From Ktedonobacteraceae bacterium (GTDB taxonomy: Bacteria; Chloroflexota; Ktedonobacteria; Ktedonobacterales; Ktedonobacteraceae): DNA of 64,000 nucleotides. Within the stretch, counting starts at the first letter, position 1; every line of letters starts with the position of its first letter. Location: the NCBI GenBank assembly GCA_035653615.1, contig DASRBN010000030.1, forward strand, positions 62,001 to 126,000, written 5' to 3'. The notes below the pieces were generated by a model. That model ran no database searches. It saw nothing but the letters and a program-made list of their open reading frames with translations, and was not told the origin of the DNA. A program made the translations under genes and the position numbers. Shown here in pieces: positions 57,735 to 64,000 of the stretch.

Positions 57735-58112
57735 ATGCGCTCGAAGGACTATCACTCACGGGAAGCAAACGGGTTTCGTATATGCAGCGTAGTGGAGTAT
57801 CTGAGAGGAAGAGAAGCATTGAAAGATTCTCCGTATTTAAGGAAAACTGTTTGTCCAGGTCTACCCCCGGCTATTCTTCACCGTGATGCACTGGTGCGTC
57901 GGCTCAGCGACGCTATTATCGGACCTGCATCCGCACCGGCGGGGAATTTTCCCTACAAACTCGTCTTGTTACATGCTCCGGCGGGCTATGGCAAAACAAC
58001 GCTGCTTGCCGATTTCTCCCGGAGGAACATTCTCAGGCGCTCCCTTTACTGGCCGCGGCAGAGGAGGTCATTGCCGGTCAATTATCAGAATCTGCTGAAG
58101 GCGCGTTTCTAA
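57735..58112 (+). pseudogene. N-terminal STAND-ATPase fragment of the SARP regulator (frameshifted)
   Basis: The about 125 residues contain LRKTVCPGLPPAILHRDALVRRLSDAIIG and Walker A LLHAPAGYGKTTLLADF, the usual opening of MalT/AfsR-like STAND regulators. Right after LLADF the frame runs into unrelated residues (RRNILRRSLYWPRQRRS) and stops. From about 58016 the neighbouring frame instead encodes PEEHSQALPLLAAAEEVIAGQLS, which continues into the gene at 58115. Most of the ATPase domain, roughly 250-350 residues, is therefore deleted and the junction is frameshifted. Confidence 0.7.
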
Positions 58113-58114
58113 CC

Positions 58115-59995
58115 TTGCAAGCAGAAATTATGCTGCAGCGCGCACGTGTGTTGTCGCGCCGTGGTGACTATCAAGAAACACAAAAACTCTGCCAACAGGT
58201 GATCGCAGCTCTGCCGGAGGGCGAAGTGAAGCTGCAAGTAGCAGCCCATATGCGTTTAGGGGTATGCGCAGCTATATTATGTAATTTTCCCATGGCAATT
58301 TCTCATTTACAGAAGGCCCTGCAACTGGGAGATGCAGAGGCAAATCCGGGGCAGGTAGCAGATGCGCATGCCACATTAGGGAACGTCTATGGATTAATGG
58401 AGAAGCCCGCTCTTGCTGACTATCATAAGTCACGTAGTATGAGCCTGCGTCAGGGAACGAATGATGTCTGGGGGAAAATCTACGATCTGATTCGGTTGGG
58501 AGTTAGTCAGAAGGATCAGGGCATGTATGCTGACGCGGAAGCTACGCTGATGCGGACGCTGGCAGAATCCAGATCCCTGCATTTTTTAGGCGGGCAGGCT
58601 TATTCCCTGGATAACCTTGCGGAACTTTACCAGGAGCAGGGATTCTATGAGCGGGCGTTGAAGGCAGGCGAGGAAGCGGTGGCTCTTGCAAGACAGGTGA
58701 AAGACGATATGTATTTGCTCAATGGCCTGCTCTGTGATCTGGCTATGACCTATCTTTACATGGGAGACGCGGTAACAGCCAATTTGCTGATAGCCCAGGT
58801 AGAGTTGCGCAATTCTGCTCGTGAAACTTTTGGTGATGAACGGATAAACTATGAACTCGCGTATAGTACGATACTACTCTACCAGCATCGGTATGATGAT
58901 GCCAGAGCCAATCTACTCACCCTTACTGCAGTGCTGGATTCAATTGGAATGAAGCGGGAGCTTCTGCTGGCACTGATTCGCCTGTCGGCCTGCTATCTGG
59001 CACAAAATCAGCCCGGCAATGTGGTACTCTATTTGAAACAGTTTGCTTCGTTACTTGCTACGAGTGAACCCTATGTGCCGCTTGTTTACAGTGAGCTGCG
59101 TCGTTTGCCACTCGTGGAGCAGGCTATCAAGACTTTCCCGGAATTGTCCCAACTGCGCACATTACTTCACCTGGAAGCTGAGACGCAAGAAGCAAAAGAT
59201 ACTTCCGAGACGCGCTTACCGGTGACGCAGCCACTAACCGCACCTGGTGCCCGGCAACTCCGCATCCTGGCATTAGGTGAACCGGCGGTATTCATTCGTG
59301 AAAAACCCGTTACGCGCTGGCGTATGGCACGAGCAATGGAGCTCTTCTTTTTCCTGTTCGACTGTGACCGCCCGGTGCGCAAAGAGCAGATCCTTACCGC
59401 TCTCTGGAGCGAAGTTGATGAGCAGGTAGATCGCACATTTCACTCCACGATCTATTATCTGCGCAAGGTGCTGGGCGAGTCCTGCCTTGTCTCCAAGGGT
59501 GGAAGCTATTGGCTTGACCTGGCTTCTCCATATGGAAGCGAAATCTGGTATGACGTTGCCAGGTTCCAGGAAAGCTACGAGCGTGCGAAACAGGCGCTTG
59601 CCAGGAACGATGAGGATGGAGCGCAAGAGGCATTTGAAGCCATGATAACCCTCTATCGCGGCGATTATGTGCAGTCGTTCTATAGCGATTGGTGCCGCGC
59701 CCGACGCGATGAACTACGCCGCAACTATCTCGATGCGCGACACCATCTGGCGCATATCGCCTGGCGTAGGGAACAGTATGATGCAAGCGCCGAACACTGG
59801 CGGCAAATGCTGGCCCTGGACGATTGTCTCGAAGAGGCTCACTATGGGCTGATGCGCTATTATCTGCACGCCGGCAAGCGTGGTTTAGCCTTGCGCCAGT
59901 ACCAGCGCTATCGTGAAACCTTACAACAAGAACTTGGTGTCCAGCCAGGTCCGGCCATCCAGGGGCTTTATCAACGCCTCGTCACCACTTCTTAG
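58115..59995 (+). CDS. SARP-type regulator: TPR and BTAD part, ATPase lost
   Basis: The open frame (626 residues from TTG 58115; true start unclear) begins in helical TPR-like repeats (about 1-350: YQETQKLCQQVIAALPEGE, LGNVYGLMEKPALADY, YSLDNLAELYQEQGFYERAL). It ends with an OmpR-like winged helix (RQLRILALGEPAVFIREKPVTRWRMARAMELFFFLFDC) and a BTAD domain (YDVARFQESYERAKQAL...ELGVQPGPAIQGLYQRL). Normally this C-terminal DNA-binding part sits in one protein with the STAND ATPase, whose start survives at 57735. The fragment could be translated alone as a small SARP. Confidence 0.8.
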   Translation: MQAEIMLQRARVLSRRGDYQETQKLCQQVIAALPEGEVKLQVAAHMRLGVCAAILCNFPMAISHLQKALQLGDAEANPGQVADAHATLGNVYGLMEKPALADYHKSRSMSLRQGTNDVWGKIYDLIRLGVSQKDQGMYADAEATLMRTLAESRSLHFLGGQAYSLDNLAELYQEQGFYERALKAGEEAVALARQVKDDMYLLNGLLCDLAMTYLYMGDAVTANLLIAQVELRNSARETFGDERINYELAYSTILLYQHRYDDARANLLTLTAVLDSIGMKRELLLALIRLSACYLAQNQPGNVVLYLKQFASLLATSEPYVPLVYSELRRLPLVEQAIKTFPELSQLRTLLHLEAETQEAKDTSETRLPVTQPLTAPGARQLRILALGEPAVFIREKPVTRWRMARAMELFFFLFDCDRPVRKEQILTALWSEVDEQVDRTFHSTIYYLRKVLGESCLVSKGGSYWLDLASPYGSEIWYDVARFQESYERAKQALARNDEDGAQEAFEAMITLYRGDYVQSFYSDWCRARRDELRRNYLDARHHLAHIAWRREQYDASAEHWRQMLALDDCLEEAHYGLMRYYLHAGKRGLALRQYQRYRETLQQELGVQPGPAIQGLYQRLVTTS

Positions 59996-60123
59996 AGCGC
60001 GGTTCACCTGCCTTGGGCAACCTACTGAGGGTAGGGGCGATCCTGGTGCTGGCGGCCGCCCAGGAATTCCATCTGCTTTAAGCCCCCATGAAATGACGCT
60101 GCCCTTCTTCGAAATCTTGCCAA

Positions 60124-60193
60124 CTGCGAAGAACCTGCGAATTTTCCACCAAAAAAACCTCCAACTGCGAAGAATCTGCGAAATCGATGCGAA
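60124..60193 (+). promoter_or_regulatory. CTGCGAA heptamer repeats at 11-bp pitch (candidate SARP sites)
   Basis: CTGCGAA occurs at 60124, 60135, 60165 and 60176, with ATGCGAA at 60187. Steps are 11 bp within groups, each a heptamer plus a 4-nt spacer. The two groups are embedded in a 22-nt direct repeat (60120-60141 and 60161-60182, one mismatch). This is the published geometry of SARP operators, here between a SARP gene and its presumed target operon. Confidence 0.5.
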
Positions 60194-60253
60194 TGATGCG
60201 TTGAACCATGTCATGTATGCTTCCCCCAACGGAACGGAGAGGTAACGCTCAAA

Positions 60254-60287
60254 AGTAACGTTTGAGTAACGGTATGTGCTCTATACT
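60254..60287 (+). promoter_or_regulatory. Promoter with AGTAACG repeats abutting the -10
   Basis: AGTAACG (60254-60260), TTTG and AGTAACG (60265-60271) repeat at 11-bp pitch, with another GTAACG at 60242. The -10 TATACT (60282-60287) is 10 nt after the last repeat and there is no good -35. SARP-activated promoters place the last heptamer about 8 nt from the -10. The start would be near 60294. Confidence 0.5.
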
Positions 60288-60316
60288 CTCCTCAAGATGA
60301 ATGACAACACGAATGT

Positions 60317-60344
60317 GCTGAAGAATACCGGGTTATTCTTCAGC
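60317..60344 (+). promoter_or_regulatory. Leader hairpin just before a ribosome site
   Basis: GCTGAAGAATA (60317-60327) and TATTCTTCAGC (60334-60344) are perfectly inverted over 11 bp with a 6-nt loop, 8 nt upstream of GAGAAGGAG. It may stabilise the mRNA or affect translation of the gene at 60365. The rest of 59996-60364 is covered by the repeat sites above. Confidence 0.5.
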
Positions 60345-60364
60345 AAGGATGCGAGAAGGAGTAC

Positions 60365-60619
60365 ATGAGCGTGGATACATCCAACCTCCAGCATCGATCA
60401 CACCTGTTTACAGTCCGCATCTGGCAAGAAGAGGTCGGAGCAGGTCAGACAGAACTGCGAGGCAAAGTGCAATTATTGACCAGCGGCGAAGTGCGCTACT
60501 TTCGCGAATGGAGCGCGCTGGTACCACTCCTGCACGCGATGTTGTCAGAATCTCAATCAGAAGAGCAGCAATTACATACTCACCTCTCACCTGTTCACGA
60601 TGGAAATGAGTTAGTATAA
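60365..60619 (+). CDS. 84-residue conserved small protein
   Basis: ATG 60365 follows GAGAAGGAG. The protein has a compact beta-rich pattern, HRSHLFTVRIWQEEVGAGQTELRGKVQLLTSGEVRYFREWSALVPLLHAML, followed by a polar tail. Similar small proteins (LRGKVQ...SGEVRYFR-W-L) recur next to regulators and transporters in Ktedonobacteria as far as I recall. The function is unknown. It is the first gene of an apparent operon with a membrane protein and a MacB-like exporter. Confidence 0.7.
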   Translation: MSVDTSNLQHRSHLFTVRIWQEEVGAGQTELRGKVQLLTSGEVRYFREWSALVPLLHAMLSESQSEEQQLHTHLSPVHDGNELV

Positions 60620-60650
60620 ACACTCGAAAAGGAAAGGTGAAGGTGTTCAG

Positions 60651-61073
60651 ATGGCAAGCGTAAGAACAATGCAAATTGTAGGTATCGTTCTCATGGCTGC
60701 TGGATGGGGATGGGCAGGAGCGAACTTTACCCCCAGCGGCTCAGACTGGTGGAATTATTTTCTCCATACCGTCCCTATCGTGATCTTGCTGGTCTTCAGT
60801 CCTTGTCTTTTTAGCGTTTCAGATGACCCTGAAGCGCCTGGTTCGAATGGCGAATGGGCAGGCATCGGCCTGAGCATTTTTGCCGGCATCAGTCTCCTGG
60901 GTTTAAGCGTAGGCATTATCTTCGGAGCGATTAACCCGAATGGAGCCTTCGGCGTAGCCACATCCGGAGATTGGGTGGTCATTGTTGCTCTTATCCTGGG
61001 TGATCTTCTGTGGTTAACGGCGCAGTTCTCTTCTCGCCCTCATCGTGCGGAGATCGAATCAGCGAGCAACTAG
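60651..61073 (+). CDS. 140-residue membrane protein, four helices
   Basis: ATG 60651 starts 31 nt after the small protein gene, with GGAAAGG upstream. Four hydrophobic segments are visible: IVGIVLMAAGWGWAGANF, YFLHTVPIVILLVFSPCLF, IGLSIFAGISLLGLSVGIIFGAI and WVVIVALILGDLLWLTAQF. The C-terminus is short and polar. No family is recognised. Placement upstream of the ABC exporter suggests a shared operon. Confidence 0.75.
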   Translation: MASVRTMQIVGIVLMAAGWGWAGANFTPSGSDWWNYFLHTVPIVILLVFSPCLFSVSDDPEAPGSNGEWAGIGLSIFAGISLLGLSVGIIFGAINPNGAFGVATSGDWVVIVALILGDLLWLTAQFSSRPHRAEIESASN

Positions 61074-61098
61074 CATTCATAGGAATCGTAAAGTACAG

Positions 61099-61126
61099 CT
61101 CCCCGGCAGGAATCCTTGTCGGGGAG
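61099..61126. repeat. Intergenic hairpin before the ABC ATPase gene
   Basis: CTCCCCG (61099-61105) pairs with CGGGGAG (61120-61126) with a 14-nt loop. It is followed by A-rich rather than T-rich sequence, so on the plus strand it is more likely an mRNA processing or stability element than a terminator. Confidence 0.4.
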
Positions 61127-61163
61127 AGGCAGGCAAAAAACAAGAGAAAGGTATGGAAAACAT

Positions 61164-61910
61164 ATGAAGACATTTGAATCCGAAAACGAGCAAAAATTCA
61201 ATGCAGAACAAAAAGTTGTTATGGACGTGAGGGATATCACAAAAAGTCTCCCCCTCGGTCGGGAGCGAATCGAGATACTCAAAGGGATCAGCTTCCAGAT
61301 TATGAGCGGGGAGTTCGTTGCCATCGTCGGCCCTTCCGGTTCGGGCAAGAGCACTTTGCTGGGGATTATCGCCGGGCTTGATAATCCCACGACTGGCCAG
61401 GTATTCATCGATGGCGTCGATATCACGCGCATGAGTGAGGGCAGGCTGGCAACGGTACGCAACAGCAAGATCGGCATGGTCTTCCAGGCGTTCAACCTCA
61501 TCCCGACGCTGACGGCGCAGGAGAACGTCGAGGTTCCGCTCTATGTTGGCAGGCATAAAGGCTCTCCCTCTGCGCGGGCGCGTGAATTGCTGACCCTGGT
61601 TGGACTCTCTCACCGCTTCGATCATCGACCCAACCAGCTCTCCGGCGGCGAGCAGCAGCGCGTAGCGATTGCGCGCGCATTGGCTACCGACCCGGCCCTG
61701 GTGATTGCAGATGAGCCGACCGGCAACCTGGATGCACGCAATGGTGAAAACGTCCTCAAACTGATCGCCGATTTACGCGCCCAGACCGGCAAAACCTTTA
61801 TTATCGCTACCCATGATCCGGTCGTTGCTTCACATGCCGACCGCGCCATTCGCATCGTCGATGGCAAGATCGCCGAGATCGACCCGTCTCTGGGTGTTAT
61901 CACGCAATAA
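61164..61910 (+). CDS. MacB/LolD-type ABC transporter ATP-binding protein
   Basis: ATG 61164 gives 248 residues. The domain has Walker A GPSGSGKSTLLGIIAG, Q-loop VFQAFNLIPTLTAQENV, signature LSGGEQQRVAIARAL, Walker B LVIADEPTGNLD and switch THDP. The spacing and the PTGNLD/FNLIPTLT motifs define the LolD/MacB/FtsE group, which powers FtsX-type permeases for export or mechanotransmission. The permease is encoded 94 nt downstream. Confidence 0.94.
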   Translation: MKTFESENEQKFNAEQKVVMDVRDITKSLPLGRERIEILKGISFQIMSGEFVAIVGPSGSGKSTLLGIIAGLDNPTTGQVFIDGVDITRMSEGRLATVRNSKIGMVFQAFNLIPTLTAQENVEVPLYVGRHKGSPSARARELLTLVGLSHRFDHRPNQLSGGEQQRVAIARALATDPALVIADEPTGNLDARNGENVLKLIADLRAQTGKTFIIATHDPVVASHADRAIRIVDGKIAEIDPSLGVITQ

Positions 61911-61929
61911 CTTTTTCTAAAAAACGCTT

Positions 61930-61969
61930 GCCTGCCGGAGTACGGCCAGCAGCCAATTTACCGGCAGGC
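61930..61969. repeat. Hairpin between exporter ATPase and permease genes
   Basis: GCCTGCCGG (61930-61938) and CCGGCAGGC (61961-61969) are perfectly inverted over 9 bp with a 22-nt loop. It may set different levels of the two subunits by mRNA processing. Confidence 0.45.
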
Positions 61970-62004
61970 CGGTACAGCTAAATACTATAAAGGAGAAGAC
62001 GAAC

Positions 62005-64000
62005 ATGAAAGCATCTGTGTTCTTAAATTACACCACACGCTCTCTGCTGCGCGGCGGACAGCGTACTCTACTGGCGGTGTTTTGTGTAACGGTGGGTGTT
62101 ATGGCGGTAGTGGCCCTGCAACTGGTGGGTTACATGCTGCAAAATTCGCTTTCGGGCAGCGCGCGCGAGGCCAACGGCGGCGATATCGCGATTATGGCGC
62201 AGGGCGCTCCGCTCAAGTCCAGCGACCTGGCTTTCTTCAACAGGCTCAAGGACGATGGCACGATCACGAACTACAGCGCCATTATTCAGGAGAATGGAAC
62301 ACTTAACAACGCGGCCTCTTCGGTGCAGTCTTTCAACATCGAGGCCGTCGATCCCAACAACTATCCATTGGTCTCATCGCCATCGTTTGTCGCGCCTTCC
62401 AATGGGAGTGTTGCCGGGCTGCTGGCCAATGACCAGGTGATTGTCACGCAGAATTTTCTCTCGACCTACCATAAGCAATTGGGTGATACCTTCAACGTGT
62501 ACGTCAAAACGTACACGGGTACGGGCCAGACGATACCGGTAAAAATTGCCGGGGTAGTGGCTAATACAGGTCTGTTCGCGCAGGCCGGCAATCTATTGCT
62601 CATCTCGGCGTCCGACTACCTGGCATCTGCCCCCGCTTCACCGGCGGTCTATACGCTCGTAGATGTCACAACGGCGGATCAGGCTCATACTGATATGGCG
62701 GTCAAGGCTATCAGCGCGCAATTCTCGCTCGTTGGCATTCAGACGGCTACAGATGTGCTCAAGTCTCAGCAGTCTACGATTGACCTGGTTAGCAAATTCC
62801 TGAAGATCACAGGTTTGCTCGCGCTACTGATTGGCGGAGCTGGCATCATCAATACCATGCAGGTGCTGCTCTCACGGCGCAAGACCGAGATCGCGATGCT
62901 CAAGACGGCAGGCTATCATCGCCGGGACCTCTACTTGCTCTTCGGACTGGAAGCTGGACTACTGGGACTGGTTGGCGGCATTATCGGAGCTATTGCCGCT
63001 ATAGGCGTCAGCTACCTTGTTCGCATCGTGGTACAAAACACCGGCACCAACATACCTTTCGTACTCAATCCGGGCCTGATACTCGGCGGCGTAGCAATCG
63101 GCTGCGTAACGGCGCTGATCTTCGGACTTCTGCCCATCGCCCAGGCGGCCAATATTCGCCCATTGAGCGTGCTGCGCGAGCTTGAGAATAAGAGCGCGGG
63201 CGGGCGCATTATGACGGTCATCTTGCTGGTGTTGTGTTCGATCCTCTTCTGCCTGCTGGCAATCGTCATTCTGGATAACAATATCGTGCTTGGGGTAGCG
63301 GTCACGTATGGAACGTTCGTGTTCCTGCTGCTGCTGGCCGGCATCTTCGGTCTGATTGTACTGGCCGTGAGCAAATTGCCGGTTCCTGAACATGTACACT
63401 TTATCCAGGTGCTGCCGTTGCTGTTGGGCATAGGCGTCTCGGTGCTGTTGTACCAGTTCGTGCCAATATTCGGCATTGTCCTGCTGCTTCTCACATTGCT
63501 GGGCGTTGGCCTGGTATTCCTGCCGAAGCGTCAGAAGGTCAATGTGAAGATGGCCCTGCGCAACCTTGGACGGCGGCGAGCGCGCACAACGGCAACCCTG
63601 CTGGCTATGTTTATCGGCATCTATGGTATTGGCTTAACCGTGGGTATCGGCCAGGACCTCAGGTCGGTGATCATTGACACGCTGAAACAGTATACGCCAT
63701 ATAATCTTGTGGCGACGACTACCGGCAACGATACGAAAGCTCTTGCAGCGCACTTAAACAGCATTCCGGGACTCGATGGGAGCCGCGAGGATCCGTTCAC
63801 CGCGACTATTCCGGTTGCGATCAACGGCCAGCCCGTTCAGCAGGCGCTTCCAAAGGGTATAAATGGTCAGCAAGATCTCAGTATGCTGGGTGGAATTGAG
63901 GGCTATGACCTGGCGCATACCGTTCCCGCGCAGCAGATTGTCAGAGGTCGCAACCTGAATGCCGGCGATGCCAATAGCAACAATGTGCTGGTCAGCCAGA
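62005..64000 (+). CDS. FtsX-type ABC exporter permease (3' end beyond window)
   Basis: ATG 62005 follows AAGGAGAAG. The frame is open for 665 codons to the window end. The N-terminal helix (TLLAVFCVTVGVMAVVALQLVGYML) is followed by a MacB-PCD-like extracytoplasmic domain (about 50-250) and an FtsX core of three helices (ITGLLALLIGGAGIINTMQVLLSRRKTEIAMLKTAGYHRRDLYLLFGLEAGLLGLVGG). A second half begins VNVKMALRNLGRRRARTTATLLAMFIGIYGIGL with another extracytoplasmic domain. It is therefore a double-FtsX permease likely about 800-1000 residues long. The cargo is unknown. Confidence 0.92.
   Translation, partial: MKASVFLNYTTRSLLRGGQRTLLAVFCVTVGVMAVVALQLVGYMLQNSLSGSAREANGGDIAIMAQGAPLKSSDLAFFNRLKDDGTITNYSAIIQENGTLNNAASSVQSFNIEAVDPNNYPLVSSPSFVAPSNGSVAGLLANDQVIVTQNFLSTYHKQLGDTFNVYVKTYTGTGQTIPVKIAGVVANTGLFAQAGNLLLISASDYLASAPASPAVYTLVDVTTADQAHTDMAVKAISAQFSLVGIQTATDVLKSQQSTIDLVSKFLKITGLLALLIGGAGIINTMQVLLSRRKTEIAMLKTAGYHRRDLYLLFGLEAGLLGLVGGIIGAIAAIGVSYLVRIVVQNTGTNIPFVLNPGLILGGVAIGCVTALIFGLLPIAQAANIRPLSVLRELENKSAGGRIMTVILLVLCSILFCLLAIVILDNNIVLGVAVTYGTFVFLLLLAGIFGLIVLAVSKLPVPEHVHFIQVLPLLLGIGVSVLLYQFVPIFGIVLLLLTLLGVGLVFLPKRQKVNVKMALRNLGRRRARTTATLLAMFIGIYGIGLTVGIGQDLRSVIIDTLKQYTPYNLVATTTGNDTKALAAHLNSIPGLDGSREDPFTATIPVAINGQPVQQALPKGINGQQDLSMLGGIEGYDLAHTVPAQQIVRGRNLNAGDANSNNVLVSQ

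Follow-up and report, generated by a model that had tools for sequence, protein, structure and literature searches.

The 369-bp gap between a BTAD-domain gene and an 84-aa ORF (p84) carries two sets of heptamer repeats, and it raises the question of which regulators these repeats serve and which genes they control. The gap lies within a 64-kb stretch of DNA (the window; C30:62001-126000) from the 6.6-Mb genome of a soil Chloroflexota bacterium. SARP switches turn on antibiotic genes in Streptomyces. An initial annotation had interpreted both arrays as SARP-type operators and by implication paired them with the BTAD gene upstream. We favor, at a probability of roughly three in four, a reading in which the gap holds two tandem activator-dependent SARP-type promoters, P1 and P2, each with its own half-site code and its own regulator; binding, activation and the pairing of promoters with regulators are predicted from sequence. 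Coordinates are given in Table 1.

Table 1. Features of the gap and its surroundings (positions are those of the window unless a contig is named).
Feature	Position	Strand	Remarks
STAND NTPase remnant (P-loop), other frame	57810..58050	+	tblastn, four intact homologues
TPR - OmpR-type wHTH - BTAD part, clade-T regulator	58115..59995	+	Pfam BTAD 1.2e-24; AfsR 8hvr 4.6e-8
P1 operator: CTGCGAA 60124/60135/60165/60176, ATGCGAA 60187	60124..60193	+	2 + 3, 11-bp pitch within groups
Degenerate third slot of last P1 group (GCGTTGAACCA)	60198..60208	+	placed by register
P1 -10-like hexamer TATGCT	60216..60221	+	22 nt past last TGCGAA
P2 operator: GGTAACG 60241, AGTAACG 60254, AGTAACG 60265	60241..60271	+	pitch 13 then 11; conserved before p84 homologues
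P2 -10 hexamer TATACT	60282..60287	+	AACG ends exactly 10 nt upstream; spacing invariant, 11 loci
p84, small protein, 84 aa	60365..60619	+	first gene of the operon
Multi-TM protein, 140 aa	60651..61073	+	
ABC exporter ATPase, MacB/LolD type	61164..61910	+	profile matches
MacB-like FtsX permease, 906 aa	62005..64000	+	runs ~725 nt beyond window end
Convergent AfsR-like large SARP	C30:127520-130810	convergent, behind exporter	1.5 kb beyond window end

The downstream unit is as initially annotated, with p84, a multi-TM protein and a MacB-like exporter in series, and the permease proves to extend past the window to its full length. A homologue of the multi-TM protein also lies behind p84 at one other locus (L042), and a copy of the ATPase with 81% identity does so at another (L046). 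The exporter resembles MacB/LolD systems in combining an ATPase with an FtsX/MacB_PCD permease; it differs in the length of its permease and scores far under the NCBIfam MacB cut-offs. Beyond the permease are a DinB-like gene and then a convergent gene for a 1096-aa wHTH-BTAD-NTPase-TPR protein. No RNA families were found in 59000-62100, and a terminator search of the region returned a single hairpin, on the minus strand. The p84 leaders (60288-60364 in the window) have a pyrimidine-rich start (CTCCTC) that in several genomes can pair with the Shine-Dalgarno region. Since CTCCTC possibly lies upstream of the transcription start, this pairing may be coincidence. In the window, the leader also contains a 12-bp hairpin at 60316-60345.

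The heptamers stand exactly where they were first placed, and TATACT, 10 nt past the last AGTAACG, lies in a region without a sigma-70 -35/-10 pair. Exact 7-mer pairs at an 11-bp pitch number three in the full 64 kb of the window, and none of them lies outside the gap. Dinucleotide shuffles of the gap gave a mean of 0.033 such pairs, with 12 of 5000 shuffles reaching three; chance does not account for the pairs. At the remaining pitches from 8 to 44 bp the gap contains no pairs, except at 30 (one), 39 (one) and 41 (nine). The 41-bp signal is a duplicated 22-nt unit, CCAACTGCGAAGAA[C/T]CTGCGAA, and the CTGCGAA copies might on that ground be a functionless local tandem duplication. This is highly improbable, because independent loci next to related regulators show the same half-site, pitch and distance to the -10. 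Two elements go beyond the earlier list, namely a third AACG heptamer (GGTAACG), 13 bp upstream of the AGTAACG pair, and the second -10-like hexamer, TATGCT. Motif statistics across genomes were obtained by pattern searches with reversed-pattern controls. Elsewhere in the same genome, exact CTGCGAA pairs occur twice more, inside an NRPS gene and an ABC-F gene; both are in coding sequence and were taken as chance occurrences.

P2 takes the form (N)AACG(N)T, three times over, 10 nt ahead of TATACT. The comparison covered the upstream regions of 11 p84 genes in nine genomes and several genera of the family. The pattern [AG][AG]CG-N7-[AG][AG]CG-N10-TA[CT]A[CG]T is present in 11 of 11 regions, where shuffles expect 0.0003 loci, and P2 is therefore conserved in every orthologous promoter of the set. 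Conservation begins at the first AACG and extends about 20 nt past the -10; bases further upstream are near random. The afs box consists of two 11-bp repeats at -40 to -30 and -29 to -19, and in SARP targets the 3' repeat lies 8 bp from the -10 (PMC10936776). With TATACT set as -12 to -7, AGTAACGTTTG (60254-60264) and AGTAACGGTAT (60265-60275) fall exactly on the two repeat spans of the afs box. Read as TAACGTT and TAACGGT, the repeats have the pitch of 11 and the 8-bp distance to TATACT of a SARP promoter. The first pitch of P2, which is 13 and not 11, counts against the match.

ECF sigma factor promoters typically have AAC-containing -35 elements, with a -35/-10 spacing that is usually 16-17 nt. 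The AACG block does contain AAC and could in principle be an ECF -35 with no activator site. We consider this very improbable and rejected it on spacing, as AACG ends 10 and 21 nt ahead of the -10. AACG is also repeated two or three times at a fixed pitch, the -10 is sigma-70-like, and the block tracks with a SARP gene. Promoters of the P2 type also occur before genes other than p84 in related genomes, examples being two in G003:C481 and three in G019. AACG promoters without p84 (L122-L126; G008:C703, G003:C481, G019:C148, C443 and C754) precede, by eye, genes for membrane proteins, a pair with an SDR-like protein, a DUF2231-like membrane protein and an FHA-domain protein. With gene calls made by eye, these promoters suggest a wider regulon.

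The convergent protein behind the exporter has the domain order of a large SARP, with an N-terminal OmpR-type wHTH followed by BTAD (5.1e-22, residues 101-242), a central NTPase (AAA_16, 5e-23) and C-terminal TPR (TPR_12, 7.5e-12). Residues 16-247 align to the structure of Streptomyces coelicolor AfsR (8hvr, E 3.2e-8). Against the NCBIfam AfsR equivalog model (NF053617) the protein scores 35.9 bits, where the cut-off is 1430. Judged by these matches, it is homologous to AfsR and not an AfsR orthologue. Within the family, p84-linked genes encode most of the proteins that match it at 42% identity or more; most others are at or below 40%. The p84-linked SARPs form one clade with 100/100 support. 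Row A_L057+ of the tree is mislabelled, being the TPR-BTAD gene of the window entered via an overlapping locus, and five rows marked T are small SARP-like neighbours.

The distribution of this SARP clade follows that of p84. Of 29 family genomes, nine contain the small protein, and each of these also has a member of the clade; among the 20 genomes without p84, one (G024) has an intact-looking member and one (G013) a broken one. Where sequence downstream of p84 is available, most loci carry the SARP in convergent orientation after the cargo. At the p84 locus of G016 a C-terminal remnant of the SARP is all that is present, and in G019 the p84 contig stops short of the place where the convergent gene would be and has a SARP of a sister clade upstream. 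What lies between p84 and the SARP is variable cargo, which includes the exporter, an alpha/beta-hydrolase membrane protein, multicopper-oxidase-like genes and small membrane proteins. Upstream of the convergent SARP genes there are no AACG or other 11-bp repeats bar one weak pair, and there is thus no sign of autoregulation. On these sequence comparisons, the regulator of P2 is likely to be the convergent AfsR-like SARP rather than the gene upstream of the gap.

P1 takes the form TGCGAA-N5-TGCGAA-N22-TANNCT, which is common to several loci beside related regulators. Its 11-bp repeats stand ahead of the -10 as three half-sites and a degenerate slot, with TATGCT at N22; where this slot sits, relatives carry TGTAAAG, TGTTAAG or TTGCAAG in register. 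A pattern search of 29 genomes gave 13 matches, compared with 3 for the reversed pattern. A TGC[GT][AG]A pair at 11-bp pitch lies within 500 bp downstream of 8 of the 18 clade-T genes, the group to which the gene upstream of the gap belongs (shuffle mean 0.036; 6 of 492 background windows), and 10 of the 18 have no downstream array. The intact paralogue in the same genome, one of the eight, is followed by CTGCTAA/CTGCTAA and then GTGCGAA-N22-TATCCT. Because similar arrays are found beside relatives of the upstream gene, we assign the CTGCGAA array to that gene's family; a view of the array as unconserved was dropped when these arrays were found. CTGCGAA arrays are absent upstream of p84 orthologues in other genomes, and control of p84 by P1 may therefore be particular to this strain. 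The expectation that the 11-bp pitch is kept in orthologous intergenic regions thus holds for AACG before p84 and fails for CTGCGAA, which is conserved beside the regulator instead.

The gene upstream of the gap does encode the OmpR-like wing and BTAD first attributed to it, but this copy is internally deleted and frameshifted. Intact clade-T relatives are 1100-1150 aa long and combine an NTPase and TPR with a C-terminal wHTH-BTAD. In tblastn comparisons, intact homologues match the local gene in frame 1 up to residue 82-128 and in frame 3 from residue 459-490; about 360 residues are therefore missing, including most of the NTPase domain. The remaining TPR-BTAD frame stays open for 626 aa. Its wHTH and BTAD together make up a SARP domain, which differs from the N-terminal domain of a classical SARP in its position and is C-terminal in all intact relatives. 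The local gene may be a pseudogene, a short active (deregulated) form or an assembly error. The SARP domain of AfsR on its own activates in vitro (PMC10936776), so a short clade-T form could act.

Several small genes lie near the intact clade-T regulators. Small ORFs resembling Os1348-family NHLP RiPP precursors are found directly behind three of them: L150 (contig C6 of the same genome), L154 and L106. NCBIfam NF038399 matches two (L154 at 1e-15, L150 at 1e-12), and the L106 call was made by eye. These ORFs raise the suggestion that the regulators may serve peptide gene clusters. Short or small membrane peptides also lie directly behind TPR-type regulators, at +350 (L155), +399 (L153), +298 (L150) and +157 (L107) from the stop. 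Two of these peptides end in DPWP and one in PYPWS, and one has an internal DPWP; they are possible signalling peptides. In clade-T clusters (L138, L139, L145, L147 and L149), TGCGAA promoters also precede genes for ~280-aa small SARP-like wHTH proteins and for ~360-aa proteins that resemble, by eye, tyrosine recombinases.

A single regulator might still account for both arrays. The TPR-BTAD gene adjoins them, its product ends in a SARP domain, and the 11-bp pitch is common to the two, so this protein could bind both and drive the operon. We regard this as improbable. Elsewhere p84 loci keep the AACG promoter without a TPR-BTAD gene, intact TPR-BTAD relatives bear arrays of the TGCGAA and not the AACG type, and the local copy is damaged. 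Recognition helices also differ consistently between the two regulator groups, with ..NLR[KQ]xxxxLRQ.. in clade A and ..[FL]HST[IVL]YYLRK.. in clade T, which fits separate half-site codes and does not prove them. Conservation, pitch, the spacing to the -10 and the homology of the regulators to AfsR all support the initial identification of the arrays as SARP-type operators, and we retain it for putative sites with predicted binding. The pairing of both arrays with the upstream gene is not retained, since CTGCGAA fits the family of that gene and AACG goes with the convergent SARP.

In the two-promoter arrangement that we favor, P1 and P2 would both read into the p84-exporter operon. P2 would be switched on by the convergent AfsR-like large SARP (wHTH-BTAD-NTPase-TPR, about 1090 aa). 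SARP protomers would sit side by side on the 11-bp repeats, replacing the -35 and docking sigma region 4, as has been shown for AfsR. P1 would be the operator type of the upstream TPR-BTAD family, the local regulator being either dead or a deregulated short form. P1 would still be in use and would serve p84. There is a substantial chance, though short of an even one, that P1 is instead a dead relic whose regulator has no NTPase and whose served gene is gone, with P2 alone controlling p84. The local regulator has a frameshift and has lost ~360 aa, and elsewhere the array sits before small peptide genes and not before p84. Against this, P1 retains five clean half-sites and a well-placed -10, and the open TPR-BTAD frame has been kept. 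The SARP domain of AfsR is active alone in vitro (PMC10936776), and the intact paralogue, with its similar array (CTGCTAA), might bind P1.

p84 itself has no match in Pfam or NCBIfam. Its structure model (pLDDT 82) has three strands and a helix and finds no match in the PDB below E 0.001; our best guess is a putative small accessory protein of the SARP circuit. A phylum-wide profile search was positive in 21 of 400 sampled genomes. Among 18 distant p84 upstream regions, from outside the family, six have a pitch-11 5-mer pair followed 7-13 nt later by TANNNT (shuffles, 0.118), and each of the remaining pitches between 8 and 14 yields none or one. A BTAD gene lies within 8 kb at 13 of 17 distant p84 loci, where genome density (98 matches in about 54 Mb) predicts ~0.5, and is absent from that range at the other four. 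The repeat letters at distant loci vary (GGACG, GGATC, AGACG), and co-evolution of regulators with their sites would be expected to produce such variation. We tentatively suggest, at close to even odds, that p84 marks a Chloroflexota-wide SARP module made up of an AfsR-like activator, an 11-bp-repeat promoter and exchangeable membrane or export cargo, here with a captured second SARP input. If so, the second input would have been captured from a C-terminal-BTAD, NTPase-TPR system, and one operon would carry two separate SARP codes.

The closest known system is AfsR and the afs box at the afsS promoter of S. coelicolor, which has a large SARP with wHTH, BTAD, NTPase and TPR and 11-bp direct repeats that replace the -35 in register with the -10 (PMC10936776). 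The system described here differs in its often three repeats with a first pitch of 13, its non-orthologous regulator and its phylum; the AfsR target is afsS, and here it is p84 with varied membrane cargo. The PimR operator at pimM in Streptomyces natalensis (a SARP-LAL regulator) likewise has three heptamers separated by 4-bp spacers, and there is a second operator that is a doublet (PMC5930380). PimR differs in its consensus (CGGCAAG), in joining an N-terminal SARP to a guanylate-cyclase/LAL-like half and in serving both operators as one regulator. Like clade T, MalT-like STAND regulators place an NTPase and a TPR sensor before the DNA-binding domain at their C-terminus; this domain is a LuxR HTH in MalT-like proteins and an OmpR-type wHTH with BTAD in clade T. 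A literature search, with most subscription papers outside its reach, returned no SARP operators from Chloroflexota; those described in the papers covered are from actinomycetes.

The mechanism is the known SARP mode. What varies is the phylum, the C-terminal SARP architecture with an operator of its own, the presence of two codes in tandem within a single gap, and p84 as a marker. The locus yields two separable half-site codes, each with a likely regulator, and its promoter geometry can serve as a query in other genomes of a phylum that has been little studied. Operators of the same geometry accompany SARP domains located at the C-terminus of NTPase-TPR proteins, and p84 represents a small protein family that tags SARP modules.
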